Below are positions 7,788 through 35,439 of a stretch of DNA of 49,777 bases, piece after piece. The notes beneath the pieces are model-generated. The model was not told the origin of the DNA, did not search any database, and saw nothing but the letters and a program-made list of their open reading frames with translations. Position 1 is the first letter of the stretch. Each line of letters opens with the position of its first letter. The translations under genes and the position numbers were made by a program. The DNA lies in contig NZ_BLZO01000005.1 of the NCBI RefSeq assembly GCF_014132355.1, forward strand, positions 1 to 49,777, given 5' to 3'. This DNA is from Okeania sp. KiyG1. GTDB lineage: Bacteria > Cyanobacteriota > Cyanobacteriia > Cyanobacteriales > Microcoleaceae.

Positions 7788-7796
7788 TATGGAGTG

Positions 7797-8010: not shown

Positions 8011-8024
8011 AACTTATAACTGAA

Positions 8025-8645
8025 ATGACCCAATTAACTTCAATTACCATCTCACCTAATAATGAACCTACAGGTTTAGTTGTTCTCTTACATGGCTGGG
8101 GAGCTAACTGTAACGATTTAACACCTTTAGCAAAACAGTTGAATTTGCCTGATTATAGGTTTGAATTTCCAGATGCTCCGCTACCTCATCCTCAAGTTCC
8201 AGGGGGAAAAATGTGGTATGACTTAGAGAATTTAGAAGAATTCAAAGGTCTGCCTGAAAGTCGCCAAATATTAATTGATTGGCTAATTTCTCTAGAAAGT
8301 AAAACAGGGATACCTTTATCTAAAACTATTCTATGTGGCTTTTCTCAAGGTGGGGCAATGGCTATGGATGTAGGAGTAACTTTGCCAATAAAAGGTTTAA
8401 TTATTTTAAGTGGGTATCTACATTCTCAACTTCAACCATCAGGAGAAAAATTACCACCTGTTCTAGTTACACATGGTACACAAGACCCAGTTGTACCTAT
8501 TGAACAAGGAAGACGAACGCGCGATACTTTCACAAGTCTGGGGGCAAATATACAATACCAAGAATTTAATATGGGACATGAGATTATTCCAGAAATTGTA
8601 AAGTTAATGCGAAGTTTTGTTATAGATACTATGGCAAAAGTTTAG
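8025..8645 (+). CDS. alpha/beta-hydrolase, phospholipase/carboxylesterase family
   Basis: 206 residues, the normal length for the small lysophospholipase/carboxylesterase family (YpfH/Est-like). 'LLHGWGANCNDL' at 21-32 supplies the oxyanion-hole HGxG segment. 'GFSQGGAMAM' at 105-114 carries the nucleophile Ser107. 'THGTQDPVVP' gives Asp154 and 'NMGHEI' gives His185, completing the triad in the expected order and spacing. The family hydrolyses short acyl esters or lysophospholipids in the cytoplasm; the physiological substrate is unknown. No signal peptide is present. It is followed at once by a hairpin terminator and then the DUF2555-like gene on the same strand. Confidence 0.85.
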   Translation: MTQLTSITISPNNEPTGLVVLLHGWGANCNDLTPLAKQLNLPDYRFEFPDAPLPHPQVPGGKMWYDLENLEEFKGLPESRQILIDWLISLESKTGIPLSKTILCGFSQGGAMAMDVGVTLPIKGLIILSGYLHSQLQPSGEKLPPVLVTHGTQDPVVPIEQGRRTRDTFTSLGANIQYQEFNMGHEIIPEIVKLMRSFVIDTMAKV

Positions 8646-8660
8646 AAAGACTATTATATT

Positions 8661-8689
8661 AAATGGGAGTGTTATTCACACTCCATTTT
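8661..8689 (+). terminator. hairpin terminator after the hydrolase gene
   Basis: 'aaatgggagtgt' pairs with 'acactccattt' across a short loop, with one bulged G, and a T-rich stretch follows. It begins 16 bases after the hydrolase stop codon. Confidence 0.65.
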
Positions 8690-8733
8690 AATTAATGCTT
8701 TCAGCAGATGCCATTTCAGGGAGGTTGGTTTTG

Positions 8734-8946
8734 ATGCAAACTATAGCCCGTTCTTTACACGAGGTTGCTAATGTAACTGCGCAGGATGTAGCTAAGTTAG
8801 CTTTACGTTTGGAGGAAGATGATTATCAAAATCCTTTTGACGGGTTGAGTGATTGGCACCTGCTACGAGCGATCGCCTTTCAACGTCCAGAGTTAATTGA
8901 GCCTTATATCCATTTATTGGATTTAGAGCCTTGTGATGAGGCTTGA
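8734..8946 (+). CDS. DUF2555-like small cyanobacterial protein
   Basis: 70 residues from the chosen start. The conserved core 'DVAKLALRLEEDDYQNPFDG' and then 'LSDWHLLRAIAFQRPELIEP' with C-terminal 'YIHLLDLEPCDEA' match my memory of the cyanobacteria-specific DUF2555 family, for which I know no function. The start at 8734 is preferred because gggagg at 8719-8724 is a strong ribosome-binding site at suitable spacing. An in-frame ATG at 8695 would add 13 residues but lies five bases after the upstream terminator hairpin. The protein is soluble, acidic and probably helical. Confidence 0.7.
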   Translation: MQTIARSLHEVANVTAQDVAKLALRLEEDDYQNPFDGLSDWHLLRAIAFQRPELIEPYIHLLDLEPCDEA

Positions 8947-8997
8947 GGCAAATATGGGGAGCGCATAAGTCAGTAATTTAATTATTTTATCAAATTT

Positions 8998-9064
8998 GAG
9001 AGTGTTGGTTTAGAAAAAAATAACCAAGGTTTTTTCATCTTGGATAGTTTTTACCCAACACTCT
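8998..9064 (+). terminator. two-tier hairpin after the DUF2555-like gene
   Basis: A perfect 10-bp outer stem, agagtgttgg at 8999-9008 with ccaacactct at 9055-9064, encloses an inner ccaag/cttgg hairpin (9024-9043). T-rich sequence follows. It probably ends the upstream transcript, though the long structured interior could instead be a small RNA. Confidence 0.5.
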
Positions 9065-9087
9065 TATTTATTTAGGGAATAGGGAGA

Positions 9088-9128
9088 AATAATTAATAAT
9101 TAATAATTAATAATTAATAATTAATTGT
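9088..9128. repeat. taattaa heptamer array ending in gttgaac
   Basis: About five tandem copies of an AT-only heptamer, ending in 'attgttgaac'. The same array and the same gttgaa(c) edge recur at 39184-39221, 41479-41511, 43899-43937 and 46482-46508. Confidence 0.85.
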
Positions 9129-9260
9129 TGAACAGATGTCTATAGCAACAGAAGTAACAGTCACTATACAAAATTATGCTTAGTAATCATTGGCCGTGAA
9201 AATCTATTCCCTGTTCCCTGTTCCCTGTTCCCTCTCTACTTTTCAAGACAAAAAAATGTT

Positions 9261-10469
9261 ATGACTAGAAGAGTTTTAATCAGTATTTGTGGTGGTATAG
9301 CAGCTTATAAAATTTGTGAGGTAGTTTCTACTCTCGTAAAATCTGGAATTGAGGTGCGAGCAATTTTGACAGATTCTGCTCAACAGTTCATTACACCTCT
9401 AACTTTATCCACTCTCTGTCGTTATCCAGCTTATACAGATCGAGATTTTTGGCAATCTACTCACGGACGTCCATTGCATATTCAGTTGGGTGAATGGGCA
9501 GAAATAATAGTCATTGCTCCTCTCACAGCAAATACTTTGGCAAAATTAGTATACGGTTTAGCAGATAATTTGTTAACTAATACAGTGCTGGCTTCTAGTT
9601 GCCCAATTTTATTATCTCCGGCAATGAATACTGATATGTGGGAACAACAGACAGTACAGCGAAATTGGCAACAAATATTGATGGAAAAAAGATATTATGG
9701 TATCAGTCCAAATATGGGAATATTAGCTTGCGATCGCATTGGTCAAGGCCGAATGGCGGAACCAACAGAGATAGTGACAAATATAAAATCTTTGTTATAT
9801 ACAGCAGGTAAAAGAGATTTAGCAGGTAAGAAAATATTGATTAGCGCGGGTGGAACGCGAGAACATTTGGACCCAGTGAGATATATCGGCAACCCTTCTA
9901 CGGGTAAGATGGGTATAGCTTTAGCTAAGGCAGCATTGCATCGGGGTGCAAGTGTCACTTTGGTGCATAGTATTTCGGGAGAGTTGCTGTTATCAGGGAT
10001 AAAAACTGTGGAGGTGGTGAGTGCTGCTCAGATGCGACAAGCAATGTTATCTCATTTTGGTGAAGCAGATATAGTGGTGATGAGTGCAGCAGTAGCAGAT
10101 GTTAAACCTGCTGAGTATAGTAGTGAGAAGTTGCCGAAGCGATCGCTACCAGATTTATTACCTTTGACACCTGTACCGGATATTGTGGCGGAGCTAGGGC
10201 GGTTAAAGCAGCGCCAGCAATATTTGATTGGGTTTGCGGCACAGACTGGAGATATTGTTGCACCTGCGTTGGAGAAGTTGCAGGAGAAAAATTTAGATGC
10301 TATTGTTGCTAACCCTATTGACCGAGAGGAAGCTGGTTTTGGTAGCGATACAAATCAAGGAATTTTTCTGGATGCTGAAGGTGGTCGGCGAGATATTCCG
10401 TCTTGTAGTAAGTTAGAAATGGCTCATAGTTTGTGGAGTTTTGTCTTGGAGAGCGGAGTGGGGGAGTAG
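9261..10469 (+). CDS. coaBC: bifunctional phosphopantothenoylcysteine decarboxylase / phosphopantothenate-cysteine ligase
   Basis: 402 residues, full length for bacterial CoaBC. The N-terminal flavodoxin-like half (1-180) is the FMN-dependent decarboxylase, with '[12 protein letters not shown]' at 11-22, the active-site His73 in '[11 protein letters not shown]', the substrate-binding 'PAMNTDMW' at 120-127 and Cys157 in the flap '[15 protein letters not shown]'. The C-terminal half (190-402) is the CTP-dependent ligase, with '[20 protein letters not shown]' and '[20 protein letters not shown]'. Together they convert 4'-phosphopantothenate and cysteine to 4'-phosphopantetheine in coenzyme A synthesis. 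The gene stands alone between repeat-filled spacers. Confidence 0.95.
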
Positions 10470-10772
10470 GGGAGGTGTGGGAGGTGTGGGAGGTGCGGGG
10501 AGTGTGGGAGATGTGGGAGGTGTGGGGAGATGGGTAGATCGAGAAAGATTTGGCAATAAAATACTTTTTATTGATTTACAATTTGTCGGATTAGGGCCAT
10601 CACTATAAACGAATTTTGGGCTAAATGTTTTTTTGGGCCTTTAGCTAATTAATAATTCTCCGCAAGCAAGTAATAGAGAAAAAAAGATTGCAGCGATCGC
10701 CTGTCTACTTAACAGCAATAAGGCAAATCGAAGAGACTGTTCTTGCGTAATAGTTAACAGAGTAACTAAACA
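10470..10772. other. spacer with G-rich array; otherwise nothing recognised
   Basis: 10463-10535 is a short array of gtgggaggt / ggggaga units that begins inside the last codons of coaBC. The rest, to the IS end at 10773, is AT-rich with one HIP1 octamer and shows no gene or strong hairpin. Confidence 0.6.
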
Positions 10773-11571
10773 GGCGTTGCACAGTGACGAATGATTATGA
10801 GAATTGAGGAATTTGCCGATGTTTCAAATAATAGATCAGCAGCCGAATTGATCTATACAGCATATCAATGGACTTGGAGTAGCACAAAGTTTTACGATGT
10901 AACCTAGCTAGATAGTGTCTTAGACGGCAGTTTTCTCCTTCTACTCTCGTCATCGCTGCGCGTGCTGACTAGATGATAGTGCTCCGCACCGCTAACGCGA
11001 ACGCAATCATCTATTAAACAGGGATAAACCTTGTATCCATCTGTAATATACAGAAAACACCCAACCGTGAATCATCTGCCATAATATTGTAAAGGTAACG
11101 GCGGAGCGATCGCCTATCACAAACTTAATAATTCCTGGCATTTGGCTATTCACGACTGTCCAGACCTAAATTTTGTTTTTTTTGAGCCGATAAAAGTTTG
11201 CAGTTCATCTATTTGAGCAGTTTCAGGTATTTCATAGTTATCGTCAGAAATCTGTGCTTGGTGCAAGCCGTACCCAGTTAAGCACTGTGTTATGGGAAAT
11301 ACCAGTCACTCTATCAATGGCTCGGAATCCCATGCCAAATCGCGGACATTTTTACACAAAGCTCTTTAACATCAGAACTATAACCCGCAGGAGAGGGACT
11401 TTCTCGAAAGCGTAGCTCCTCCGTTAGGAGGCAATTGACGGCCACAGTCACGGCACAGATAACTCTGTTTTCCCTGACGATGACCATTTTTCACTACTTT
11501 ATGGCTTTGACAATAAGGACAATCCATTTTTCCATGACATTCTAGAATATCATTCTCTATTGTGCAACACC
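10773..11571 (-). mobile_element. decayed IS1-family insertion sequence
   Basis: The ends are imperfect inverted repeats of about 23 bp: ggcgttgcacagtgacgaatgat-like at 10773 and, inverted, ggtgttgcacaatagagaatgat-like ending at 11571. Between them, on the minus strand, lie the broken parts of an IS1-type transposase. About 800 bp is normal for IS1. No target duplication is recognisable at the edges. The left end matches the 144-bp non-autonomous element at 30974-31117. Confidence 0.75.
10960..11527 (-). pseudogene. IS1-family transposase (InsA/InsB) remnant
   Basis: Translation starts well at 11527 with the IS1 zinc-ribbon 'MDCPYCQSHKVVKNGHRQGK' and 'YLCRDCGRQLP'. It is then broken near 11390-11430 by short inserted DNA ('gtagctcctccgttaggagg'). 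Further pieces in other frames read 'YSSDVKELCVKM', 'FRAIDRVTGISHNTVLNWVR' (helix-turn-helix) and 'GSKKNKI', followed by WTVVN-like and GDRSA-like segments of the DDE domain. Several frameshifts and stops make it inactive. Confidence 0.75.
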
Positions 11572-11961
11572 CTGCCCTCTGCCTTCTGCCTTTCATATAT
11601 ATTAGTTTTATAGGGTTGACAAATAATTTTGCTTATGCAAGTATAGCAGTTGCCCTTTTGTGTATAGTCGTTATCACTCCTCTCAAATTTAGTCACAGCA
11701 ATAATTTTGACTTCCTTGGAGCCTTCTACCTTCTGCCATCTGCCCTCTGCCTTATTGCCACTATAGTGTAAGTATTCTACCAACTTGGTATAACCTCTAC
11801 CCTTTGCCTCTCCTACCTTCTGCCCTCTGCCCTCTACCTTCTGCCTTCTCCTCCCTTAAACCCTATATGAAAACAAGCCAAATTGTATAGGGTTTTATAG
11901 GTCAAATCAGTAGCTACCCTTACGTCATTGTTGGTAGCAAGCAATATCCAGGGAGCAGATA
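11572..11961. other. spacer upstream of the sigma factor with ccttctg-type arrays
   Basis: Two blocks of the heptamer ccttctg / ccctctg lie at about 11572-11590 and 11725-11855. Open frames through them are low-complexity and not called. The last 100 bases before 11962, without repeats, presumably hold the promoter and leader of the sigma factor gene; no clear -35/-10 could be chosen. Confidence 0.55.
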
Positions 11962-13182
11962 ATGGAGGGTACTTTAACGGGGCAAGACAACGACCTACTC
12001 AGATCTCAGTTTTGGGAAAAATGGACTGAATATCAGGACCAGCTTTATCGGTGCTGTCTTAAGTTTATGAACTCTAACCCAACAGATGCCGAAGATGCCT
12101 TGTCTCAGGCAATGCTCAAAGCTTGGGAAAAGGTACAGAAATATGCTGGGAAAATCGATAACTTGAAGGCTTGGCTATTCAAGCTGACTAGCAACCTCTG
12201 TATTGATATCATCAGAAAACGTTCTAGAGGAGCAGTAGGTGTTGAAAGTATTGAATGGGTGGGGGATACTGAGGAGATAGGTATAGGTTCAACGGTTGCG
12301 TCGCCAGAGATTTGTCTGGAGAGACAGGAGCAATCTACTGAGATACAACAGGCGATCGCTAATTTACCAGAAACCTTGCGGGAAACTTTTATTTTACATT
12401 TTTATCAAGAGCTGACCCATACAGAAATTGCCCAACGCCAAGGGATATCCTACGATAATGTGTGCAGGCGAATATATCAGGCGAGGAAACTGCTCAAAGA
12501 GAAGTTGAGCGGATATTTTCGAGGTGCGGAGGAGGATGTCATATCTAGTCCGGTTGAGTACTTAGGCATTGGTGGAAAGAAGGCAGAGGGCAGTTCAGCG
12601 AAGCCGTTGCCGCAGGCTGGGCAGAAGGCAGAAGGGAAGGAGGAAAGTTGCAAGTTAGACTCCCATGAACTTTCTTTCACAACGAAGGAAGAAAACTCTG
12701 GTGTCCCCGCGTCTCCCTGTCTCCGCGTCCCCGCGTCCCCGTGTTTCCCTGTCTCCGCGTCAGTCCTAACTAAGGGTATTCAAGAGGACATGATATTAGT
12801 GGGAGACGGAGACAGCAATGGACAGAATAAGATAGGCATTAAAGAAGTAATAGTAGAAACATCGCCTACTGTTCGGGAAACGGGAACGGTATCGGTAGAG
12901 ACGTGCAATCCCAATCGCCTAACAATAAAAGGTGAACCACAGCAACAATCACCTATTTACCCATTTCGCTTATGTGGGATATGCTTGCAATGGGTCAACG
13001 CTTCACTAAGAAATCGCCGTTCTCAACGCCTCCCTACGCCTCAACCGAACTCTTTAAAGATTAATAGAAAAAATCAGAAAAAAAGAGAACTTCCGTCTCT
13101 TAAACAGAATAGTAAAACTAAAACGAAAGGTCTAGGGTTTGGAAATTTTGAAGATTTTCTACTTAGAGTTTTCTTGGCTTGA
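11962..13182 (+). CDS. sigma-70-family (ECF-like) RNA polymerase sigma factor with a long repeat-derived C-terminal tail
   Basis: The first 190 residues are a compact two-domain sigma factor. Region 2 lies at 21-88 ('TDAEDALSQAMLKAWEKVQ', 'AWLFKLTSNLCIDIIRKR') and region 4 at 126-186 ('AIANLPETLRETFILHFYQE', helix-turn-helix 'THTEIAQRQGISYDNVCRRI'). No region 3 or anti-sigma domain is seen. The remaining 215 residues match no domain. Residues about 206-270 translate intergenic-type repeats ('GGKKAEG', 'AGQKAEGKEES', 'GVPASPCLRVPASPC'), so the ORF seems extended by repeat insertion, although it stays open and ends in a basic tail. It lies 51 bases before the papain-like peptidase on the same strand and may control the cluster; that is inference from position only. 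Confidence 0.8.
   Translation: MEGTLTGQDNDLLRSQFWEKWTEYQDQLYRCCLKFMNSNPTDAEDALSQAMLKAWEKVQKYAGKIDNLKAWLFKLTSNLCIDIIRKRSRGAVGVESIEWVGDTEEIGIGSTVASPEICLERQEQSTEIQQAIANLPETLRETFILHFYQELTHTEIAQRQGISYDNVCRRIYQARKLLKEKLSGYFRGAEEDVISSPVEYLGIGGKKAEGSSAKPLPQAGQKAEGKEESCKLDSHELSFTTKEENSGVPASPCLRVPASPCFPVSASVLTKGIQEDMILVGDGDSNGQNKIGIKEVIVETSPTVRETGTVSVETCNPNRLTIKGEPQQQSPIYPFRLCGICLQWVNASLRNRRSQRLPTPQPNSLKINRKNQKKRELPSLKQNSKTKTKGLGFGNFEDFLLRVFLA
12575..12765 (+). repeat. intergenic-type repeats carried in frame inside the sigma factor gene
   Basis: aagaaggcagaggg and cagaaggcagaagg copies of the ccttctg-type heptamer, 'agcgaagccgttgccgcagg', and a gtctccctgtctccgcgtcc array lie within the coding frame after the region 4 domain. 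The first type fills spacers nearby (11572-11855). Confidence 0.75.
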
Positions 13183-13233: not shown

Positions 13234-14121
13234 ATGTTGATTTTCAATGGTAGAGAATGGATTGGTACAGGTTGGGTACCTGAGTTGCCTGATATCAACG
13301 ACAAGAATTTGGAGACAGAAACAGTCAAAACATTTTTACAGAGAGTTGGATATCAAACACTTCTTAGTAAGGTTGACTTGCGCCGAGGGTTTCCACCAGT
13401 GTATGACCAAGGTCAGATCAATGCTTGTCAATCTAATGCTTGTGTGGCTCTGGCAGAATACTTTCAGCAGCGAACTTTCGGCAAAACTCTAGATGGTTCC
13501 CGAATGTTTATCTATAAAGTAGCCCGACAACTAGTTGGCCAATATGCAGATAAGGGAGCTTATAATCGCAAAGCGATGGAGGCATTAACTTTCTTTGGCG
13601 TACCGCCAGAAAAGTTTTGGCCTTACAATCCAGCCATAGTCAACGCCGAACCTCCGGGTTTCTGCTACGCCTTTGCAGAAAACTTCAAGGCGACACAGAG
13701 TTATCGTTACGATCAGCCTAACGTTAATCCTGAAACACTGCTAGCGATCGTTAAAGACCAACTCGTTAAAAATTTACCAGCGATGTTTGGTTTTCCCTTA
13801 TTCCCATCGATCGCACAAGCTCATATCACAGGTAAGATTCCGACTCCTGACCCCACGGAAAAGCCAGCAGGTCTTCATACCGTGGTAGCAGTGGGTTATG
13901 ACGACAAGATAATCATTGAAAACCGGACTCCAGGTTGCCAGAGAGAAGAAGGAGCACTGTTGATTAGAAACTCCTGGGGCGAAAGATGGGGAGATGCCGG
14001 ATATGGCTGGTTACCTTACCAATACCTATTGTCAGGGTTAACCAGTGACTGGTGGTCTTTGTACGATATGACTTGGTTGGATCAAGAACAATTTAACCAA
14101 CCGGTTGCTGAGCGAGAGTAA
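13234..14121 (+). CDS. papain-like (C1 family) cysteine peptidase, candidate precursor-processing protease
   Basis: 295 residues without signal peptide or propeptide-like extension. The papain catalytic set is in order: Gln59 and Cys65 in 'VYDQGQINACQSNACVALAE', His215 in 'PAGLHTVVAVGYDD', and Asn246 in 'LIRNSWGERWGDAGYGWLPY'. The motifs resemble bacterial C1A peptidases of the 'YDQGQxGSC' type, though Cys65 follows 'INA' rather than 'GS' and a second cysteine (Cys70) follows closely. The lack of a secretion signal suggests a cytoplasmic role. It lies between the sigma factor and the repeat precursor on the same strand, so excising core units from the precursor is a reasonable inference. Alternatives are general proteolysis or a role in immunity. 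Confidence 0.85.
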   Translation: MLIFNGREWIGTGWVPELPDINDKNLETETVKTFLQRVGYQTLLSKVDLRRGFPPVYDQGQINACQSNACVALAEYFQQRTFGKTLDGSRMFIYKVARQLVGQYADKGAYNRKAMEALTFFGVPPEKFWPYNPAIVNAEPPGFCYAFAENFKATQSYRYDQPNVNPETLLAIVKDQLVKNLPAMFGFPLFPSIAQAHITGKIPTPDPTEKPAGLHTVVAVGYDDKIIIENRTPGCQREEGALLIRNSWGERWGDAGYGWLPYQYLLSGLTSDWWSLYDMTWLDQEQFNQPVAERE

Positions 14122-14355
14122 TCAGCAAGTTAGTATTTCCAGAAACTTCAAGCGTTTGCGTTAGAAAGCAGACGCTTTCACAGAGCATTGTCCTCCAGCT
14201 ATGAGTTGGGGGAAGGGATAGAGGGTGGGTAAATCAGGCGATGAGGAATGCGACTGGAGACAAAACTCTGAAAGCAGGAACCGTCTGCTTGAACTCAATG
14301 GAAGCCTCTAAGAGCTTCCTCGACTGAAAAACATTTACAACTGAGGATTTTTAAC
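14122..14355 (+). other. leader region of the repeat-precursor gene, with hairpins
   Basis: No gene. An imperfect 10-bp hairpin, aagcgtttgc at 14150-14159 with gcagacgctt at 14168-14177, follows the peptidase stop and could end or attenuate its transcript. Downstream lie a G-rich stretch (14206-14230) and a ggaagc/gcttcc stem near 14301-14320. The 14250-14330 stretch reminds me loosely of IS200/IS605 right ends or omega-RNA-like sequence, but I cannot confirm this. The ribosome-binding site of the precursor lies at the end. Confidence 0.4.
14343..14347 (+). promoter_or_regulatory. ribosome-binding site supporting the GTG start of the repeat precursor
   Basis: gagga lies eight bases before GTG at 14356. 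No in-frame ATG occurs nearby, so the GTG start is well supported. Confidence 0.65.
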
Positions 14356-15963
14356 GTGTTACCGCAATATCAAATTGATGCTGCTAGGGCTTTAGCAGGC
14401 AAAATTCAGCAAGACTATCTAGGTGGTGCAGCTCCTGGAGGTAGACCACCAATTGTGCCAGTTCCTACTATATACACGGCAATGATTCCAGTATGCCCCC
14501 CTACCTCACCGCCCTATTGCCCAATCATTAATCCAACGGGAGCACAGGGTGCAGCTCCGGGTACTGAAGTTTATACAGCAAGTACTGTGCCACAGTGCCC
14601 ACCTACCTTTTACGCTTGCCCGCCTACTAACCCTGTAATTTGCCCGGGGGCGGCAGCGCCGGGAACTGTAGCTGTTCCTACTATATACACGGCTCAGATT
14701 CCAGTGTGCCCCCCCACCTCACCGCCCTATTGCCCAACCATTAATCCAACGGGGGTACAGGGCGCAGCGCCGGGAACTGTAGCTGTTCCTACTATATACA
14801 CGGCTCAGATTCCAGTGTGCCCCCCCACCTCACCGCCCTATTGCCCAACCATTAATCCAACGGGGGTACAGGGCGCAGCTCCGGGAACTGTAGCTGTTCC
14901 TACTATATACACGGCTCAGATTCCAGTGTGCCCCCCCACCTCACCGCCCTATTGCCCAACCATTAATCCAACGGGGGTACAGGGCGCAGCTCCGGGAACT
15001 GTAGCTGTTCCTACTATATACACGGCTCAGATTCCAGTGTGCCCCCCCACCTCACCGCCCTATTGCCCAACCATTAATCCAACGGGGGTACAGGGCGCAG
15101 CTCCGGGAACTGTAGCTGTTCCTACTATATACACGGCTCAGATTCCAGTGTGCCCACCAACCTCACCGCCCTATTGCCCAACCATTAATCCAACGGGGGT
15201 ACAGGGCGCAGCTCCGGGAACTGTAGCTGTTCCTACTATATACACGGCTCAGATTCCAGTGTGCCCACCAACCTCACCGCCCTATTGCCCAACCATTAAT
15301 CCAACGGGGGTACAGGGCGCAGCTCCGGGAACTGTAGCTGTTCCTACTATATACACGGCTCAGATTCCAGTGTGCCCACCAACCTCACCGCCCTATTGCC
15401 CAACCATTAATCCAACGGGGGTACAGGGCGCAGCTCCGGGAACTGTAGCTGTTCCTACTATATACACGGCTCAGATTCCAGTGTGCCCACCAACCTCACC
15501 GCCCTATTGCCCAACCATTAATCCAACGGGGGTACAGGGCGCAGCGCCGGGAACTGTAGCTGTTCCTACTATATACACGGCTCAGATTCCAGTGTGCCCA
15601 CCAACCTCACCGCCGTATTGCCCAACCATTAATCCAACGGTGGCACAGGGCGCAGCTCCGGGAACTGTAGCTGTTCCTACTATATACACGGCTCAGATTC
15701 CAGTGTGCCCACCCACCTCACCGCCGTATTGCCCAACCATTAATCCAACGGGGGTACAGGGCGCAGCTCCGGGAACTGTAGCTGTTCCTACTATATACAC
15801 GGCTCAGATTCCAGTGTGCCCACCCACCTCACCGCCCTATTGCCCAACCATTAATCCAACGGTGGCACAGGGCGCAGCTCCTGGCACCGTCCCAACCATT
15901 CCCGGAATTTGCCCACCAACCGTACCCCCAGTTTGTTATCCGACTTACTTCCCTGCTTGCTAA
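14356..15963 (+). CDS. multicore RiPP (lanthipeptide-like) precursor candidate: Cys/Thr/Pro 37-residue repeats
   Basis: 535 residues from a GTG start. A short N-terminal segment, 'LPQYQIDAARALAGKIQQDY' then 'LGGAAPGG', looks like a small helical leader. A divergent repeat follows, then a variant with 'VPQCPPTFYACPP', then eleven 37-residue units built on 'TIYTAQIPVCPPTSPPYC' followed by 'PTINPTGVQGAAPGTVA'. Each unit has two Cys and several Thr/Ser but no Lys, Arg, Asp or Glu. Thr six residues before the first Cys, and Thr/Ser four or five before the second, could give two (methyl)lanthionine rings per unit. The C-terminus is 'GICPPTVPPVCYPTYFPAC'. There is no signal peptide. Kinase, HopA1 and LanC genes follow on the same strand, which is why I call it a precursor; a structural repeat protein is the main alternative. 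No homologue is known to me. Confidence 0.7.
   Translation: MLPQYQIDAARALAGKIQQDYLGGAAPGGRPPIVPVPTIYTAMIPVCPPTSPPYCPIINPTGAQGAAPGTEVYTASTVPQCPPTFYACPPTNPVICPGAAAPGTVAVPTIYTAQIPVCPPTSPPYCPTINPTGVQGAAPGTVAVPTIYTAQIPVCPPTSPPYCPTINPTGVQGAAPGTVAVPTIYTAQIPVCPPTSPPYCPTINPTGVQGAAPGTVAVPTIYTAQIPVCPPTSPPYCPTINPTGVQGAAPGTVAVPTIYTAQIPVCPPTSPPYCPTINPTGVQGAAPGTVAVPTIYTAQIPVCPPTSPPYCPTINPTGVQGAAPGTVAVPTIYTAQIPVCPPTSPPYCPTINPTGVQGAAPGTVAVPTIYTAQIPVCPPTSPPYCPTINPTGVQGAAPGTVAVPTIYTAQIPVCPPTSPPYCPTINPTVAQGAAPGTVAVPTIYTAQIPVCPPTSPPYCPTINPTGVQGAAPGTVAVPTIYTAQIPVCPPTSPPYCPTINPTVAQGAAPGTVPTIPGICPPTVPPVCYPTYFPAC
14671..15891 (+). repeat. eleven tandem 111-bp units
   Basis: 'gctgttcctactatatac' begins every 111 bases from 14671 to 15781. 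Synonymous markers sort the copies into blocks: copies 1-4 have tgcccccccacctc, copies 5-9 tgcccaccaacctc, copies 10-11 tgcccacccacctc. Copies 9 and 10 share ccgccgtat, and copies 9 and 11 encode 'TVAQ' in place of 'TGVQ'. This indicates block duplication with purifying pressure on the protein. Confidence 0.97.
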
Positions 15964-16053
15964 TGGACTCTTCCTATAGCAGGGGCATGACAAGGTGCAG
16001 CCCCAGGTAATATCTACACTGATTGGTGTACCATACCTCCAGGATATTGCTAA
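15964..16053 (+). pseudogene. decayed in-frame terminal repeat of the precursor beyond its stop codon
   Basis: Reading on past the TAA at 15961 in the same frame gives 'WTLPIAGA', a TGA at 15988, then 'QGAAPGNIYTDWCTIPPGYC' and a TAA at 16051. 'QGAAPG' plus a Tyr-Thr/Cys-rich segment is clearly related to the units upstream. The gene therefore once extended further and was shortened by nonsense mutations, unless the stops are read through. Confidence 0.7.
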
Positions 16054-16108
16054 GGAATCAGCATATCCAAGATCACTCAAGCTAGTACCGTAGCTTTTGA
16101 TAACGTCT

Positions 16109-16133
16109 CAACGCTGCCATCCTGGTAGCGTTG
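16109..16133 (+). terminator. strong hairpin between the precursor and the modification genes
   Basis: caacgctgcca pairs with tggtagcgttg across a three-base loop (11 bp with one G-T pair), followed by ggggttatta. There is no long T run, so partial termination or RNA stabilisation is more likely than full stop. Such an element between precursor and enzyme genes would give more precursor than enzyme transcript. Confidence 0.6.
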
Positions 16134-16209
16134 GGGTTATTAGACAGCATCAGCTCAAATTTCACCAAAAAACCGGCACAAATTTGCCAACCGCCAGATA
16201 ATTTACTCC

Positions 16210-17307
16210 ATGGCTAACCCTACCAGCTCTATTGTCTATTACCTATTAGACCGGGGCTTTCTCACTTTTGAGTCCGTAGTTGATGGTGACTTGAAAGTGA
16301 TTGAGCGCCCTACACGCTACCGTAACTACTTTATTCACCGCCAAAACCATCCCGGCTACTTCGTTAAAAAGCTTCAAGACACACAACCGGAAAACTTTGT
16401 TGTCTTACAAAAAGAAGCTAATTGTTATCAATTAGCCCAACCCAATGGAGTTCTTGCTTCCCTAGCTTCCCTGATGCCCAAATTCTATGGATTTGACCCG
16501 ATGCGAGGCGTCTTAATTCTCGAACTGGTTTCAGGCTCTGAGGATTTGGGCATCTACCACCGAAGGGTAGGCAAATTTCCCATCGAAATTGGGGAGCAAT
16601 TGGGACGAGCATTAGCTAGTTACCATCGTGCTGGTAGCTTTGCTTTCCGGGTTCCTAATCAACAGACTATCTTTCCCAAACAAATTCCCTGGATTCTCTC
16701 CATTTACGAAAACAACTTACAATATATTCCCCAAGAGGGAGCCTCTACCCAACTTCAGACCATTCTACAGCGCTATCCCGACTTTCCTCAGAAAGTGGAA
16801 GCTTTGCGTAGTCAGTGGCAAACAGATACCCTGATTCATGGAGACATGAAATGGGAAAACTGCCTAGTCTCTCCCGCTAACAACGGCAAGAGTGAATTAG
16901 AACTAACCATAATTGACTGGGAACTGGCTGATATTGGTGATGGCTACTGGGATGTAGCAGGAATTTTTCAGGCATACTTTAACTTCTGGATTTTGTCCAT
17001 GCCAGCCACTGCCGAAATCTCACCAGAGCAGTTGGTTGCTCAGGCTCCTTATCCCTTGGAAAGCCTACAACCGGCAATGCAAGCCTTTTGGCAGGCTTAT
17101 GTGGAGAACTTACCAGTTAACCAAGGGCAAGCAGAAGAGTTGCGGGAACGCTCCATGATGTATGCTGCCGTGCGTACCTTGCAAACGGTATTTGAATACA
17201 CGAGAAGCTCAACCCAACTCACAACTAATGCTATCTATATGCTTCAAGTTAGTTTAAATATCTTGCAAAATCCCAAAGAAATGGTACCGATTTTGTTAGG
17301 AAATTAA
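16210..17307 (+). CDS. aminoglycoside-phosphotransferase-fold kinase, class V lanthipeptide / thioviridamide type
   Basis: 365 residues with the protein-kinase-like APH fold. The N-lobe carries the candidate ATP lysine in 'GYFVKKLQ' (Lys53/54) and Glu69 in 'LQKEANCY'. The catalytic loop 'LIHGDMKWENCLV' has Asp212 and Asn217, and the metal-binding 'IIDWELADIGDGYWD' has Asp236. All key residues are intact. In class V lanthipeptides and thioviridamide-like RiPPs a kinase of this fold phosphorylates Ser/Thr of the precursor, and a HopA1-family partner then helps eliminate phosphate to give dehydro-residues. The HopA1 gene follows after 20 bases, which strongly supports that role; true aminoglycoside resistance is unlikely in this context. 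Confidence 0.85.
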   Translation: MANPTSSIVYYLLDRGFLTFESVVDGDLKVIERPTRYRNYFIHRQNHPGYFVKKLQDTQPENFVVLQKEANCYQLAQPNGVLASLASLMPKFYGFDPMRGVLILELVSGSEDLGIYHRRVGKFPIEIGEQLGRALASYHRAGSFAFRVPNQQTIFPKQIPWILSIYENNLQYIPQEGASTQLQTILQRYPDFPQKVEALRSQWQTDTLIHGDMKWENCLVSPANNGKSELELTIIDWELADIGDGYWDVAGIFQAYFNFWILSMPATAEISPEQLVAQAPYPLESLQPAMQAFWQAYVENLPVNQGQAEELRERSMMYAAVRTLQTVFEYTRSSTQLTTNAIYMLQVSLNILQNPKEMVPILLGN

Positions 17308-17327
17308 CTCCAAGAATAATATCAAAC

Positions 17328-18380
17328 ATGGAAGCACAACTGATTCCAGAACTGACAAAAATCTGCCAAGCAGTTAAGATTGCTTCTCCGACAGAAGCCT
17401 CCTTTGCTGGACGGCGGGTTCCTGAAGTGGGAATACCAGGACAACAACCTATGTCCCAGCAACAAATGCTGGCTTCTGGACAAAACCCCATGATCTGGCG
17501 CTTGCAGTCTCAGTTATATATGTACTGCTATTGTCAACAGTTCACCGGGACAATTCCTGAAGAACCGAAGCCAGACCATCCTTCTCAAGTCCAAGACCCT
17601 AACTTCCTACAAAGCCTTTCCCAAGCTAACACCAGTCGTGAGCGTTGGGAGAGCGGCTGGCAAATCTATCGAGTCGAAGCTTCGAGCCAAGTAATGGCTC
17701 AAAAGTTTGGCACTAACCGTATGTTCTGGCCTGGTCAGTTTTTCTGCCAGGAAGGAGCGGGAATGGCACCAAGGGTAGGAGCTAATATCAGCGTCTTTTT
17801 ACCTAGGGAATCTTTTACCATACAACCGGGCTTTTACTATGTTTTCAGTGAAACCCAGATTGGGTACGAAGATGACTACAATCAAGTACGTTTCTATTGG
17901 CATCTCCAAGAACAAGGAGCAGCTACCTTAATCCGTTGCCTAACTCAGAAACTCAATCAGTTTCAAGTGCCGTTTCGCTTCAAATGCCTGACCTCTTGGA
18001 ATAGTAATTTGCCTCGTTCTGACTCAGCAGTTTTATTTGTTAGCAAACGCTTTACTCAGATTACCGCCAGACTACTTTCAGAAGTCTATCCTAAAATCGA
18101 GAAGTACCTGGAACCTCGAACACCCCTATTTAGCAAACAACTTGCTCCAGGATTAGGACTAGCAGAAGACCCAAGTAATGGGGATAGCTTTGGCTTGAAT
18201 CGTTGCCGTATTCTCGCCGAAGGTATCTGGAATGCCTATAGCAAAGGTCTGCAAACTGAGCGAGACCAATTGGGAGAAGTAATTCAACAATTCAACCAAT
18301 ATGGCATTAGTTTAGAACGTCCTTATTTGTCGGCTGGGTCAATTGAGCAATATCAATTTCCCAATTTATTTGTTGAGTAG
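17328..18380 (+). CDS. HopA1-family protein (RiPP dehydration partner)
   Basis: 350 residues. The HopA1-like part (about 110-335) includes 'ESGWQIYRVEASSQVMAQK', 'PGFYYVFSETQ', 'DSAVLFVSKR', and the characteristic 'TPLFSKQLAPGLGLAEDPSN' with 'SFGLNRCRILAEGIWNAY' near the C-terminus. Proteins of this family, named after a Pseudomonas type III effector, occur beside APH-fold kinases in class V lanthipeptide and thioviridamide-like clusters, where the pair installs dehydroalanine/dehydrobutyrine. No secretion signal is seen. The first 90 residues, Pro/Gln-rich, are not recognised. The gene is tightly packed: 20 bases after the kinase and 2 bases before the cyclase, so one transcript is expected. 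Confidence 0.85.
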   Translation: MEAQLIPELTKICQAVKIASPTEASFAGRRVPEVGIPGQQPMSQQQMLASGQNPMIWRLQSQLYMYCYCQQFTGTIPEEPKPDHPSQVQDPNFLQSLSQANTSRERWESGWQIYRVEASSQVMAQKFGTNRMFWPGQFFCQEGAGMAPRVGANISVFLPRESFTIQPGFYYVFSETQIGYEDDYNQVRFYWHLQEQGAATLIRCLTQKLNQFQVPFRFKCLTSWNSNLPRSDSAVLFVSKRFTQITARLLSEVYPKIEKYLEPRTPLFSKQLAPGLGLAEDPSNGDSFGLNRCRILAEGIWNAYSKGLQTERDQLGEVIQQFNQYGISLERPYLSAGSIEQYQFPNLFVE

Positions 18381-18382
18381 AA

Positions 18383-19657
18383 ATGATGAATACTACAGTA
18401 CAAAATAGTTTTTTAGAAACAGCCAACGCCATTGCCGCTCGCCTCTGCCGAGACGCAATCTGGAATAGTAAGCGCTGCAACTGGTTGGGAGCATCAATGG
18501 ACTATCTCCTCAACAATTGGACAGTGACTGAAAGTTCCTTTGGTCCAGACTTATACACTGGCACGAGTGGTATTGCCCTGTTTTTGGGTAAGATGTACCA
18601 GCTGACTCCTGAGAAACTCTATCGCCAAACTGCCGAAGCGGCGATCGAGCATACCCTATCCCGGTTACCAGAATTACCTCCAGAAGTTCGCAGTGGTTTT
18701 TACAGTGGTTGTACTGGTATTGGTTATATTTTAGTTCGCCTGGGGGAAATCTTTGACCATCAGGATTGGCTGGAAAAAGGACTAAAAATCTTAGCAGAAC
18801 GTAGCCAGGATGACCTAAGTAAGCAACAGCTGGATGTAGTTAGTGGTATTGCTGGTGCGATTCCCGCTTTGCTCTCGGTTTATCAGCAGTATCCACAAGA
18901 TGTCCTCTTAGAAGCAGCCAATCGCTATGGTGAATACTTACTGTCAAAAGCCAACAAAAATGATTATGGTTGGTCTTGGACTACTCTGGAAATGCCTGGT
19001 GAGGTTCAACAGCAAGACCTAACTGGATTTTCTCACGGAGCAGCAGGAATTGCTTGGGCATTACTGGAATTGTATCAACAAACCAAGCAAGAGTCTTTCC
19101 TGGTAGCAGCAGAAGCCGGTTTTCGCTACGAGCAAAATTGGTACAATCCTCAGTACGAAAACTGGCCAGACTTACGCAATTTTCAGCAAGGGACAACTAC
19201 TGGCACTAATCCAACTCCCAGTTACGGAGTTGCCTGGTGTCATGGCGCACCCGGTATTGGTTTCTCGCGGCTGCGTGCTTATGAGATTTTAGGCAAACCA
19301 GATTACCAACACCAAGCGGAAGCTGCTATACGCACCACGATTAAATCCTTGCAGCAACCTGCCACCGGTGCAGAAAGTTATTGCTTGTGTCACGGTTTTA
19401 CCGGCAATACCGAATTACTCCTTTATGCCAGTCGCGTCTTAGGCAATGCCGAATATAAATCCATAGCTGAGCAAGTTGGCTGGCGAGGCATTGAACATTA
19501 TGAAAAGAACCGTATTCCTTGGTCTTGTGGAGTTATGGGGGGAGGAGAAACCCCAGGTTTGATGTTAGGGTTAGCAGGGATTGGTTATTTTTATCTGCGT
19601 CTGTATGACCCCCAGCTAGCGCCATCGATGTTGATTATTTTGCCAGAAACAGATTAA
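18383..19657 (+). CDS. LanC-type lanthionine cyclase
   Basis: 424 residues, a stand-alone LanC (alpha/alpha barrel) of normal length. The repeated GxxG segments are seen: 'LYTGTSGIALFLG' (58), 'GFYSGCTGIGYILV' (105), 'VVSGIAGAIPALL' (152), 'GFSHGAAGIAWALLEL' (215), 'AWCHGAPGIGFSRL' (284), 'CLCHGFTGNTELLL' (334) and 'GLMLGLAGIGYFYLRL' (392). Zinc ligands Cys286, Cys336 and His337 and the catalytic-type His218 are all present. LanC enzymes activate Cys thiols for Michael addition to dehydro-residues, forming (methyl)lanthionine. No dehydratase domain is fused, so dehydration must come from another protein, fitting the adjacent kinase/HopA1 pair. It is the last gene of the operon; the start overlaps an ATGATG two bases after HopA1. 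Confidence 0.92.
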   Translation: MMNTTVQNSFLETANAIAARLCRDAIWNSKRCNWLGASMDYLLNNWTVTESSFGPDLYTGTSGIALFLGKMYQLTPEKLYRQTAEAAIEHTLSRLPELPPEVRSGFYSGCTGIGYILVRLGEIFDHQDWLEKGLKILAERSQDDLSKQQLDVVSGIAGAIPALLSVYQQYPQDVLLEAANRYGEYLLSKANKNDYGWSWTTLEMPGEVQQQDLTGFSHGAAGIAWALLELYQQTKQESFLVAAEAGFRYEQNWYNPQYENWPDLRNFQQGTTTGTNPTPSYGVAWCHGAPGIGFSRLRAYEILGKPDYQHQAEAAIRTTIKSLQQPATGAESYCLCHGFTGNTELLLYASRVLGNAEYKSIAEQVGWRGIEHYEKNRIPWSCGVMGGGETPGLMLGLAGIGYFYLRLYDPQLAPSMLIILPETD

Positions 19658-20011: not shown

Positions 20012-20821
20012 TCACATATACCTCGTCACCAACATTCCATCTATCCATTTCCAATCAGTCACGAATTTAGGAAGTGGTTTTGGTTCGGCACTATTACAGC
20101 CAGATTTGTTACCTTGACTGCCATCATGGCGAGTCTTTTCGTCATGGCAATGTCGATGGAGAAGTTGAAAGTTTTTATACTCATTCAAACCGCCAATAGA
20201 CCGTGGAATGATGTGGTCTTTCTCTATGACATCTCTATCTTGAAAAGTTAATCCACAATAGGGACATTTGCCTTTTTGCTTTTTTAATAGCAAGGCATTT
20301 AACTTGGGTAATTCTGGATGTTTACCCAAACGAGAACTCCAGTAAATTAGGTTTCCATCAAACGGCGAGGCAGTACCTTTAACCTTTGTATGACGGATAA
20401 TGGGTGTTTTAGCGTGTTCAATCAATCTTAACCCATCAGTAGTAGAGAATATCCAGTTGTTATCTCCATGTGTGTGCCAATATTTGTCCGTAATCCAATC
20501 TCCGTTTTTATTAGGATGACGGCGTTTAGCCCATCGTGCTAGTTTCAGGTACAATAGGTGATCTAACTTAGTAAATACCCTCTTGCTACATTGTGATGAA
20601 TAGTAATTCGCCCAACCCCGAATAACCGGGTTGAGGTGTTTGATAACAGCACCTTGACTTTGTGCTTTGTGAGCATCAATAATGTCAGCAAGATGTTGAT
20701 AATGTGCCTGAATTTTAGCCTCACTGGGTTTGACTATCGTCTTGAAGCCTAGCCGTTTTCGATGTCCATTACACCCTGATTTATATTTACCCACTTTGTA
20801 TTGACGAATGATGGTTTCCAT
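20012..20821 (-). pseudogene. C-terminal fragment of group II intron reverse transcriptase/maturase (X and HNH domains)
   Basis: 269 codons remain. Residues 5-37 ('IRQYKVGKYKSG', 'LGFKTIVKPSEAKIQAHY') are the end of the thumb region. 'LNPVIRGWANYYSSQCSK' (63-80) and 'LDHLLYLKLARWAKRRHPNK' (86-105) are the maturase X domain. 'GKCPYCG' (Cys186, Cys189), 'EKDHIIPRSIGG' and 'QLLHRHCHDEKT' form the HNH nuclease. The fingers/palm with the YADD polymerase motif are absent, so reverse transcription is impossible. An ATG happens to lie at the break; expression as a small maturase/HNH protein cannot be excluded. Confidence 0.8.
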
Positions 20822-20858
20822 GCATTGGCATCATGGAGTCCAAATGACGAAGTCATGT

Positions 20859-20996
20859 TTATGTGGATAAAAGATAATTTTTAACTTCCAACAAATCGCT
20901 GGTCGTGACGGTGACAGGCAGCTCGACATTGAGCCGACAAATCTCACTCAGCAAATACGGCATAGATTTACAACCCTTAAAATCGACGAAAAACAT
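20859..20996 (-). other. small unassigned reading frame (45 codons)
   Basis: A minus-strand frame reads 'MFFVDFKGCKSMPYLLSEIC' onward to '...VKNYLLST', with a composition that looks protein-like, but I recognise no family. It lies between two reverse transcriptase remnants and may be another mobile-element fragment. No clear ribosome-binding site is present. Confidence 0.3.
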
Positions 20997-21029
20997 AAAA
21001 CCAAGGGAGATGAACCTTGGGCATAAGGG

Positions 21030-21389
21030 TCATTTGGAGTAAGCGATCGCCCCCTTCAACCCGCTATTCCCGGCTAAGTGAAAACATCGAGGTGAAAGGA
21101 CAGGTTTCAAATGTTCCGTCAAAACAATAGTCATCGCGTTTAACACCAAAGCATCCAAAGACGACCACCATTCTATTGATTTCTCCTCACCTCGAATCAA
21201 GCGCAACTCCCGAAATTGAAAATTCCCCGAAAGAATTTGCGCCTGTAGGATGGGCTTTTTCTCGTGCCACCATCGTCTGACCTGCCAGACATCGGCATTC
21301 GGATGATAATGTAGGCGTTTTTTACACAACCATTCATAAGCAGTATCGATCGCCTCGTCGGAGGCTATTTTTTCTATAAGAGTGGACAT
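21030..21389 (-). pseudogene. N-terminal fragment of a reverse transcriptase distinct from the adjacent intron
   Basis: 119 codons. 'DVWQVRRWWHEKKPILQAQI', 'FRELRLIRGEEKSIEWWSSL' and then 'DALVLNAMTIVLTEHL' with 'CFHLAGNSGLKGAI' resemble the RT0-RT2 part of stand-alone bacterial reverse transcriptases ('DALVLKA' and 'H(L)xGxGGxKGAV' blocks). The frame ends just after that block, before the catalytic palm, so it is a truncated remnant. Assignment is by pattern only. Confidence 0.5.
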
Positions 21390-21566: not shown

Positions 21567-24500
21567 CTACCAAGGACTACCGACCATTGTAAACCCTGCC
21601 CAGTAATAGGGATGGGAAAAATTTTTCTGATTCATCTGAGCTAACTCTGGAGGTAAAGGCATTTCTCCACGGCTTCCTGAAACTTTTAACATACCATTTT
21701 CGATAACAACTTTACCCTTTAACATTGCTATTTGTGCTGCTCGTAATGCTTCAGCTTTAATACTAACATTACCTAAGTGAGAGTAAAATTCTGTCATTAA
21801 TCCTAATGTTCCTTCATCATTAACTAACCATAAACTTGCTAATACCGATCTAACTCCGGTTGCTATTGCTAACCCGGCAAAACCTAGTTCAGAATTTTTA
21901 TCTCCTACTGCTGTACGACAGGCGGATAATACTAATAGTTCAACTTCGGGATTATTCCATTCTAAATCGCGGATTTGATGTAGGTGTAATTTATCGTTCC
22001 ATAGTTGAATATAAGATTTACTGGCATTCCCCGCTCTAAATTCTGCATGAGTAGCTAGGTGAATAATTGGATAGGGATAATTTTGGCGTTGATTAATTAG
22101 GTTTTTTCGAGTAAATTCTTCGTTGAGAAAAATATTACCTTGTTGTGAATTTTTGGTAATGGCTTTTAATTCTACTGGTACTGCTGGTAAGGGTGGTTTG
22201 TTAGAAAATTTACTGGCTCCCATTGCTAAAAGTTTTGTATTTTTGAGGGAGTTGTAGTTACTATTCATTAAGCTGACGCTGGGTATTAAACTGACGTTAT
22301 ATTTTTCGATTAAAAATTGTTTTCCATCATGTAATGCTGCTAAGGGTAAGAGGCGAAAACCTGCATCCATACTAAATAGTAATGTATCAATATTTGCTGC
22401 TTTTAATTCTGCTGAAATTGGAGATATTAACCAGTTGTATAGTTTTTTTGCTGTTGGTAAATAGTTATGATTGTTGCGTTGTTTCGGGTCGATAATATCT
22501 AGATAAAATTTTATTGCTATTTCCCATAGTTGTTTTCTATTGACTTCAGAAATAGTTTTGAGAATAGATTGACCGTCGGGGGTGAATAATATTAGTTGTA
22601 GTTGGTCTTGATGAACGTTGACGTAGATAACTGCTGATTTTTTTCCGGTCTGATGGTGCATATCTACTAGGATTTCTCTGACGTTTTTTGTGGATAGTAA
22701 TTTTTGGTCGAGATTTTCTCCTAGATAATTTGAATATTCTTCGATTCGGTTTTTTTCTAGGGCTAATATTATTTGGGATGGTGAGGTTTCTATTGTTAAT
22801 GGATTGGTTGGGGTTAGATTTAATTGTGGTAATTGTTGATTGGTTTGGCTTGAGTTTGGTAGAGGGTTATTGGGGTTATTGGTATTGTTAGAGTTAATCG
22901 TATTTTTGGGATTTGTGTTGATGAGAGTTTCACTGTTATTTTGTGGGGATTGAATGGTATTTTGAGTTGTGGTGGTTCTCGAAAAGTTAGTGGTATTTCT
23001 GGTTTGTCTGGCAGATATATTTGCTGGATTTTCTCTAGGATTATTATTGATAGATGAAGTGGGAGTTATGGGATTGGGATGATTATTTATTGTTGATGGA
23101 TTGGTATTAGTTGAAGTTGAGGTTTGATTATTATTGATTATGGGAGAGGGAGAGTGGTTGGTAATTGGTGATGGGTTGGATTTTGGTGTTTTTGATGGTG
23201 GAGTTAGGTTATTGGTTGGTGTTGGGGGTGAATTTTCAGATATTTGTGTAGTTGGATTAATAATTGTTGGTGTTGGGGGTGAATTTTCAGATATTTGTGT
23301 AGTTGGATTAATAATTGTTGGTGTTGGGGGTGAATTTTCAGATATTTGTGTAGTTGGATTAATAATTGTTGGTGTTGGAGTATTGTTAGTAGTTGAAGGT
23401 GTGGATATGGGAGCTATAGAAATGGGATTATTTTCAGTTGGTTGGCTAAGACTATTGTTTGATTGATTAAGATTATTGTTTGGCTGGCTAAGATTATTGT
23501 TTGGTTGATTAAGATTAATTTTTCCTGTCTCTGTAAAGATTTCACCTGTGTTAATTTGACCAACTTCAGTGGTCAGATTAATATTGCCACTTTCTTGAGG
23601 AGCAGTGGAAGTAATATTGCCTGTATTTATATTATTTCTAGCACTAATATCAATGTCCCCAGCAGTACCTGTTTCTGCTTGAGTCGTAATATTTTCGGTA
23701 TTAACAGAACCTGCCTGACTATTAACAGAAATATTCCCACTATTCTCTCCAGCAATAGAACTAATATGACCTGTATTTATATCGTCTCTTGCGACAATAT
23801 TTATATACCCAGAATCTCCAGTTTCGGCAATTGTTTCAATATTATTAGTATTAACAGAACCCTCCTGACTATTAACAGAAATATCTCCACTATTCTCCCC
23901 ACCGATAGAACTAATATTTTCAGTATTAATACCATATATTGCAGCAATATCTATATCGCCAGAATTTCCAGTTTCAGCTTCAGTTTCAATATTATTAGTA
24001 TTAACAGAACCCTCCTGACTATTAACAGAAATATCTCCACTATTATTATTGCCATAGGTACTAATATTTTCTGTATTAATATCCTCTTCCGCACTAACAT
24101 CAATATTACCTGAGTCTCCAGAGTTGCCACTAGATTCAATATTGCCCGTATTTACCTCGCCATTATCGCTACTAACCTCTATATCTCCACTATTTTCTCC
24201 ACCACTAGAATTAATGTCCTCAGTATTAATATCTTCTCCCGCTTCGACAGTAATATCGTCTGAGTTACCAGAGTTGGAGAGAGACTCAATATTTTGAGTA
24301 GTAATAGAACCATCAGCAGCAATAACCTCCACTTCTCCCGATGAGCGATCGCCTATTGACTGAATATCTGCCGTATTAATATCACCTTGAAAATTATAGG
24401 TATTGAGGCGAATATTGCCACTGGTGCCATTTTCGGCAATAGTTTGAATTTTACGAGTGGTAATAGTGCTGTTATTACTTTGGATATTAACATCCCCACT

Positions 24501-35433: not shown

Positions 35434-35439
35434 GGTTCA

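Follow-up and report, generated by a model that had tools for sequence, protein, structure and literature searches.

We describe a gene cluster from the cyanobacterium Okeania sp. KiyG1 that probably encodes a lanthipeptide pathway of class V ('Vb') in which many core peptides would be released from each chain of a tandem-core precursor; we put the probability of this reading at roughly 0.7. The window, which is the whole stretch of 49,777 bases that was analysed, is contig C5 of the 11-Mb genome G000 of this organism. The cluster occupies positions 13234-19657 and consists of five open reading frames (ORFs) in the same direction, encoding a papain-like (C1) peptidase, a long repeat protein, a kinase (LanK), a HopA1-family lyase (LanY) and the cyclase LanC. 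This layout had been given in a first-pass annotation of the same DNA and agrees with the ORF coordinates, including the gaps of 20 bp between the kinase and HopA1 genes and 2 bp between the HopA1 and LanC genes. That annotation also proposed that the repeat protein is the substrate of a thioether pathway formed by the kinase, HopA1 and LanC, which the comparisons presented below support well and make very likely. So far as we have seen, neither the tandem-core architecture of the precursor nor the link between this architecture and LanC has been described before, and the loci are best read as a branch of class V pathways with tandem-core precursors that spans several phyla.

The repeat protein (Table 1) has an N-terminus that reads MLPQYQIDAARALAGKIQQDYLGGAAPGG. 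The motif AAPG occurs in it 14 times, once at the end of the leader and 13 times between modules, which gives 14 modules; the earlier estimate of about a dozen cores was therefore fair. Eleven of the 14 modules represent a 37-residue unit, VAVPTIYTAQIPVCPPTSPPYCPTINPTGVQGAAPGT, and at the DNA level the tandem-repeat finder places 11.1 copies of a 111-bp unit, with 98% matches, at 14648-15881. Compared with their consensus, the 11 units carry 20 codon differences: 16 leave the amino acid unchanged, and the four that replace it are confined to two linker-adjacent positions; these differences are not independent events because the repeat copies are related. The repeat ORF behaves as a real gene, as judged from the mostly silent differences among units and the conservation of the leader in a second cyanobacterium, SBLK. 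Beyond two stop codons and in the frame of the precursor, a decayed module reads QGAAPGNIYTDWCTIPPGYC before the next stop, which suggests that either the array or a second precursor formerly extended farther. The 246-nt gap between precursor and kinase has a folding z of -3.44 (0 of 200 shuffles folded as low), and 74 bp of it can be aligned, with 75.7% matches, to the sequence that precedes the kinase gene in SBLK; the hairpin located there may set the ratio of precursor to enzymes. A promoter or a T-run terminator between precursor and enzymes was considered and rejected, as the scan did no better than shuffles.

The most informative relatives are L100, the locus of SBLK, and L130, a locus of genome G618, which belongs to the same phylum as the Solibacteraceae (Acidobacteriota) genome that carries L101. 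The L100 proteins are 82% (C1), 86% (kinase), 83% (HopA1) and 85% (LanC) identical to those of the window, and the locus encodes two precursors (L100a and L100b; lengths 401 and 534 aa) that have the leader of the window precursor. The enzymes and the leader are under purifying selection between the two loci, with dN/dS of 0.05-0.12. The L100 modules are reshuffled and diversified, and the window module VYTASTVPQCPPTFYACPPTNPVICP recurs in L100b among many others; the 11 near-identical modules of the window suggest the output of one product and the diverse SBLK modules suggest a library. L130 has the same composition: its C1, kinase, HopA1 and LanC proteins are 41-45% identical to those of the window, and both of its repeat precursors have the motif FLRGQIQQD[YF]L at the place of the window motif ALAGKIQQDYL. 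A leader-plus-core query found no second copy in the genome of the window organism and no match in G618, so that the L130 precursors were located by position rather than by sequence search.

A wider set of loci was assembled from several sources. A kinase-pair scan of genome contigs gave 8 loci (L100-L107), and kinase-HopA1-LanC is also found in L101, L102 (Thermosynechococcaceae), L103 (Undibacterium), L104 (Myxococcota by tree placement) and L105 (Loktanella), with no LanC match in L106 and L107. Further loci are L135 (G488, the genome that also carries L101), L131 (like L130, from the same phylum as that genome) and L133 and L134 (phylum of Undibacterium), and a plasmid search, in which 6 of 14 matching records were examined, added L124-L127. 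Viral contigs gave 36 pattern matches, none of which was confirmed as a relative.

We then compared 16 loci with HopA1 and LanC with 31 LanC-less HopA1 loci. After classing by eye, a Cys/Thr repeat ORF adjoins the kinase in 11 of the 16 LanC loci (the window, L100, L103, L104, L105, L125, L130, L131, L133, L134 and L137) and in 0 of the 31 LanC-less loci; the Fisher probability is 2.5e-7, uncorrected for kinship or by-eye classing. An automatic repeat score of at least 0.25 is reached in 12 of 16 and 2 of 31 loci, respectively. Four of the scored ORFs were dropped by eye as unrelated long or shadow frames (L105 8344-9231, L127 235-2709, L095 4034-6835 and L143 1661-5809), and L105 was counted by its own 94-aa ORF instead. 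The weakest of the 11 is L137, which is the same locus as L101 and is cut by the contig end so that 71 aa are seen; the Fisher probability without it is 1.5e-6. The upstream sequence spans 0.3 kb in L137, 0.6 kb in L135 and 2.4 kb in the control L144, a repeat gene farther away being out of view. The first-pass annotation had named the absence of repeat proteins from all other HopA1/LanC loci as grounds for abandoning its proposal; when this was checked, they were present in 10 of the 15 others. Unit counts are 9 in L104, 13 in L134 and 15 in L103. The repeats are unalike across phyla, e.g., TCVGLFSCISHTG, PTTTQTCCP and DCKHVMWTAGCTF, so what recurs is an architecture and not one sequence. Small tandem-core versions are seen in Roseobacter-type loci, where ORFs of 80 aa (L125:5473-5715) and 94 aa (L105:9635-9919) have three units of the Cys...TAxC type before kinase-HopA1-LanC.

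The position of Ser and Thr relative to Cys provides a second line of evidence. Among distinct Cys contexts, Ser or Thr is present at -3 to -6 in 29/29 cases in L100a (expected fraction 0.59), 28/28 in L100b (0.53), 35/35 in L130a (0.51) and 14/14 in L130b (0.50), i.e., 106/106 for SBLK and G618 together, as well as in 9/9 in the window (0.57) and 28/28 in L133a (0.81). The peak is at -5, with 0.56 compared to 0.17 overall for L100 and the window and 0.51 compared to 0.15 for L130, and L100 and L130 have no excess at +3 to +6. Such spacing is what would be expected if every Cys formed a ring with a dehydrated Thr or Ser on its N-terminal side. A leader motif, [FYLAVW][LFM]xGx[ILMV]xxx[YF], to which ALAGKIQQDYL of the window conforms, is present in 10 of 18 precursor-type ORFs and in 3 of 453 other ORFs, and it is a lead rather than a test because it was composed after the sequences had been seen and some of the rows are kin. 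The N-termini of L130a, L130b, L131, L133b, L124 and L128 are alike by eye over a longer stretch; four of these precursors were scanned against Pfam and NCBIfam, with no match.

The enzymes have the residues that such a pathway would need, and the statement of the first-pass annotation that catalytic residues are intact holds in the alignments of the kinase, HopA1, LanC and C1. The kinase has HGDxK..N and DWE (2/2 rows), with H210, D212, N217 and D236 kept in L092; a profile of the kinase rows finds the corresponding chain of PDB entry 9dk1 (7e-4), and the 78.9 bits of the kinase against NF038156, the LxmK equivalog model, lie below the cut-off of 315, which places it outside LxmK. R188, K219 and R230 of HopA1 are invariant in 7/7 rows, and the HopA1 row profile matches the lyase chain 9dk1_B (1.5e-18). 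These three residues pair with R187, K219 and R229 of CaoY by spacing and not by an alignment; CaoK/CaoY dehydration has been reconstituted, and replacement of the CaoY residues abolished or impaired phosphate elimination (PMC9486802). In LanC, whose dN/dS is 0.12, C286, C336 and H337 are invariant in 7/7 rows. Its best PDB match is LicM2 (88.6 bits), followed by NisC (49.5 bits), and we take the three residues to be the zinc ligands, as in NisC. The LanC domain exceeds the cut-off of the LanM model TIGR03897 (323.8 bits, cut-off 304) over model positions 546-932 only. An ordinary LanM was nevertheless rejected, as the dehydratase domain is absent, the protein is a 424-aa cyclase only, and it stands apart from 24 cyanobacterial LanM cyclase domains in a quick tree (SH-aLRT 83). 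The alignment of the C1 peptidase with PDB 3ois scores 96 bits and has Gln, Cys, His and Asn in register, and the C1 gene has counterparts in SBLK (82% identical, in the same place) and in L130 (45%), i.e., the synteny holds in three genomes.

Table 1. Features of the tandem-core lanthipeptide locus, in window coordinates
Feature	Position	Strand	Basis
C1 (papain-like) peptidase, 295 aa	13234-14121	+	PF00112 35.6 bits, above cut-off
Tandem-core precursor, 535 aa, GTG start, 30 Cys, 92 Ser/Thr	14356-15963	+	without match in Pfam or NCBIfam
Leader, 24 aa, motif ALAGKIQQDYL	14356-14427	+	dN/dS 0.05-0.10 vs SBLK
14 core modules with QGAAPGT-type linkers between	14428-15960	+	AAPG motif count
Decayed core module	15991-16053	+	79% DNA match over 72 bp to internal L100b (SBLK) module
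Strong RNA hairpin without T-run, precursor/kinase gap	~16096-16144 (approximate bounds)	+	fold of 246-nt gap
LanK, APH-fold Ser/Thr kinase, 365 aa	16210-17307	+	PF01636 41.2 bits, cut-off 23.2
LanY, HopA1-family phospho-Ser/Thr lyase, 350 aa	17328-18380	+	PF17914 121.3 bits, above cut-off
LanC, stand-alone thioether cyclase, 424 aa	18383-19657	+	PF05147 (LANC_like) 246.2 bits, above cut-off

In the pathway that we propose, the leader motif [F/A]LxGxIQQDYL would dock the enzymes, LanK would phosphorylate Thr and Ser in each module, and LanY would eliminate the phosphate to give dehydrobutyrine and dehydroalanine. LanC with zinc would then activate the Cys thiols and close (methyl)lanthionine rings, the ring partner being mostly a Thr or Ser 3-6 residues, and most often 5, upstream of the Cys. 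Finally, the C1 peptidase would cut at the Gly/Ala-Ala-Pro-Gly linkers, releasing many cores from each chain.

A number of observations weigh against this pathway and have to be considered together with the alternatives that they favor. The chemistry is predicted throughout. The candidate precursor is non-repetitive in 5 of the 16 loci, i.e., in L102, L124, L126 and L127, which are all HopA1-LanC fusions, and in L135, and the locus counts overstate independence because the loci are related by descent. One could suppose that the repeat gene is a bystander and that the true substrate is a short peptide encoded elsewhere, as the short GG-leader candidate of L102, a relative in its enzyme set, and the non-repetitive candidates of the fused plasmid loci would suggest. 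We regard this as very improbable, since gene order and leader are conserved in SBLK and L130 and the other 11 loci have repeat precursors; moreover, no convincing short precursor was seen among the 20-150-aa ORFs at 10.4-22 kb of the window that contain Cys together with GG or GA.

The Ser/Thr-Cys spacing also has exceptions. The -3 to -6 rule fails in L131 (10/18), L134 (11/23) and L104 (1/9, where Ser/Thr stands on the C side in 6/6), it is uninformative in L103, L105 and L125, and the pooled set of L134, L125 and L105 has its peak at -3; a first run on all Cys gave the same direction as the distinct contexts (window sample 11/12, L131 12/20, L134 20/32, L104 1/18). In addition, Ser/Thr is common on the C side, with a share of 0.57 at +2 for L130 and of 0.35 at +3 for L100, so the spacing may partly reflect a C-P-(P)-T word. 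Thr/Cys repeats that are rich in proline are reminiscent of structural proteins, and a surface or structural protein is conceivable here as well. This resemblance and the lack of a universal ring spacing would suit Cys/Pro-rich metal-binding or disulfide repeats in which the enzymes only dehydrate Thr while LanC is inactive or acts elsewhere. We give this explanation little credence: the Cys, Cys and His of LanC are kept in all seven rows and the protein is under purifying selection, and the strong N-side spacing appears in two unlike precursor sets, for which disulfide or metal-binding repeats would have no evident need.

Cleavage by the C1 peptidase is the step at which a further alternative departs. 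A C1 relative was found in only 3 of the 16 HopA1/LanC loci (with less than 0.7 kb of upstream sequence in L135 and L137), and no peptide exporter was seen among the scanned window ORFs. Both points would agree with a repeat protein that is modified by the same enzymes while its chain stays uncut, as a full-length, thioether-stapled cell-surface or protective polymer from which C1 at most removes the leader, and so would the protein-level identity of the 11 modules save for the two linker-adjacent positions. A large repeat graspetide, corallotide, has been described (PMC13097080). The product would then be one long repeat protein stapled by lanthionines, with as many as dozens of thioether rings along its chain. 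It would amount to a cross-linked polymer that is genetically encoded and whose length and sequence would be tuned by module shuffling, and such proteins would occur in Cyanobacteriota, Acidobacteriota, Myxococcota and Pseudomonadota. We consider an uncut chain unlikely, and a polymer of this kind equally so. The linker motif is the same as the leader-end motif, GG or DG stands ahead of each of the 9 L104 cores, the protease gene adjoins the precursor in genomes of two phyla, and the SBLK modules are diversified in the manner of a peptide library, all of which argues for release of the cores from the chain by proteolysis.

Among described systems, the locus is closest in enzymes to class Vb, the name under which the set of LanK, LanY and LanC has been published, with mSmoA as an example (PMC12291118, 2025). 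The window contains LanK, LanY with the lyase residues, LanC and a precursor with a leader and a core of Ser/Thr and Cys; the kinase, lyase and cyclase are stand-alone, only (methyl)lanthionine is predicted, and neither LanX nor a second APH gene was seen in the operon. It differs in the length of the precursor (14 modules in the window, and similarly long precursors in SBLK), whereas the described members have a short precursor with one core, and in the inclusion of the C1 gene; the mSmoA precursor stood outside this comparison. The enzymes are not new because this set is in print, and the claim of the first-pass annotation that their arrangement is unfamiliar from described clusters is rejected; its claim of novelty stands, so far as seen, for the long tandem-core precursor and its spread. 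According to PMC8153245 (2021), 20% of HopA1 proteins are near or fused to LanC-like cyclases. Class V precursors were collected only from ORFs of less than 110 residues in PMC9486802, and the HopA1 survey of PMC8153245 sought short peptides; a 535-aa precursor would have been passed over because both efforts aimed at short ORFs. Peptides of Family 11/20 and 22 of PMC8153245 may hold pieces of the precursors described here. A May 2026 preprint (PMC13060208) states that multi-core lanthipeptide precursors had not been reported, and we found none by title or abstract in the open-access literature.

The locus shares LanK-LanY dehydration and the kept catalytic residues with class Va (cacaoidin, lexapeptide and rosins; PMC9486802, PMC12291118), but class Va has LanX and LanD and ends in AviMeCys whereas the window has LanC. 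Ten further window ORFs were scanned for LanD and LanX and none fits, and the flavoprotein-family gene at 9261-10469 is CoaBC (TIGR00521 440.8 bits, cut-off 219.7) and not LanD. With the thioamitides (TsaC/TsaD/TsaK) the locus has in common the pairing of a kinase with HopA1 and a gene for a C1A protease that is conserved, such proteases being reported for both thioamitide and polytheonamide clusters in PMC8153245. It differs from thioamitides in LanC and the long repeat precursor, and neither YcaO nor TfuA was found among the scanned window ORFs, which include some of the small ORFs and are bounded by the contig end. The likeness to class II (LanM) is limited to the cyclase domain described above, the dehydratase domain of LanM being absent. 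Cyanobactins and plesiocin-type graspetides likewise have several cores or motifs per precursor but rely on other chemistry (PMC13060208, PMC13097080).

Of the 149 genomes in the relatives set, 32 have a match to HopA1 (PF17914), and of 386 genomes of the phylum, 55 are matched by the window HopA1 protein at 1e-6 (own genome included in both); LanC, searched at 1e-15, is beside or fused to HopA1 in two of the 386, namely the genome of the window and G403. At 1e-15 the HopA1 profile is found in 4 of 247 genomes of the phylum of G488 and in 3 of 299 of the phylum of G489, counting the central genomes. In the HopA1 tree the LanC-linked proteins together with four LanC-less ones form a group (100/100) apart from nine cyanobacterial LanC-less rows, and inside this group two switches between the labels 'multi' and 'single' are required.

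Several further loci with HopA1 differ from this scheme. The LanC-less loci L132 and L136 have repeat precursors without Cys. In L136 (5117-9004, SBLK) and L132 (G731, oriented 4488-8547) the HopA1 clusters include an ATP-grasp-like protein and repeats of the TTTxxGEE type (10 and 21 units, respectively), which recall the plesiocin motif and are possibly plesiocin-like graspetide repeats that are dehydrated as well; L136 alone was scored, and its ATP-grasp-like protein reaches 62.5 bits against TIGR04187, below the cut-off of 350. L168 (G222, oriented 5768-12893) has a kinase, HopA1 and a whole LanM of 1084 aa in a row, so that a class V dehydratase pair stands beside a class II synthetase; no repeat precursor was seen there, and a short GG-leader peptide with four Cys lies downstream. 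The genome of the window itself has two more LanC-type matches, on contigs C64 and C82, which share 34% identity with its LanC in the cluster; the one on C82 lies in a frame of ~1095 aa, the size of LanM, and the organism may therefore also make class II lanthipeptides.

With regard to the surroundings of the locus, an ECF sigma factor gene at 11962-13182 was considered as a cluster member and rejected, as it has no counterpart in L100. Directly downstream of LanC, at 20012-21389 on the minus strand, lie a group II intron maturase-type ORF (GIIM and HNH domains) and a further reverse-transcriptase-like fragment that is discernible by eye, with no Pfam match. They are followed at 21567-30608, also on the minus strand, by a gene for a 3013-aa protein with an N-terminal TPS secretion domain, a C-terminal CHAT domain and many internal repeats. 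The intergenic regions of the window contain many tandem arrays of 7-8 bp, for example at 7797-7903 and 35439-35822.

If the proposed pathway is true, multi-core precursors are indeed used by lanthipeptides, in more than one phylum and in fact in several. Such precursors are out of reach of any mining restricted to ORFs under ~110 residues; a mark by which they could be searched for is a Cys/Thr repeat ORF that immediately precedes kinase-HopA1-LanC. One enzyme trio that acts on 14 modules in the window and on a wide variety of modules in SBLK would lend itself naturally to the making of ring-peptide libraries, and the processivity of the enzymes and their control by the leader would be testable on one substrate.

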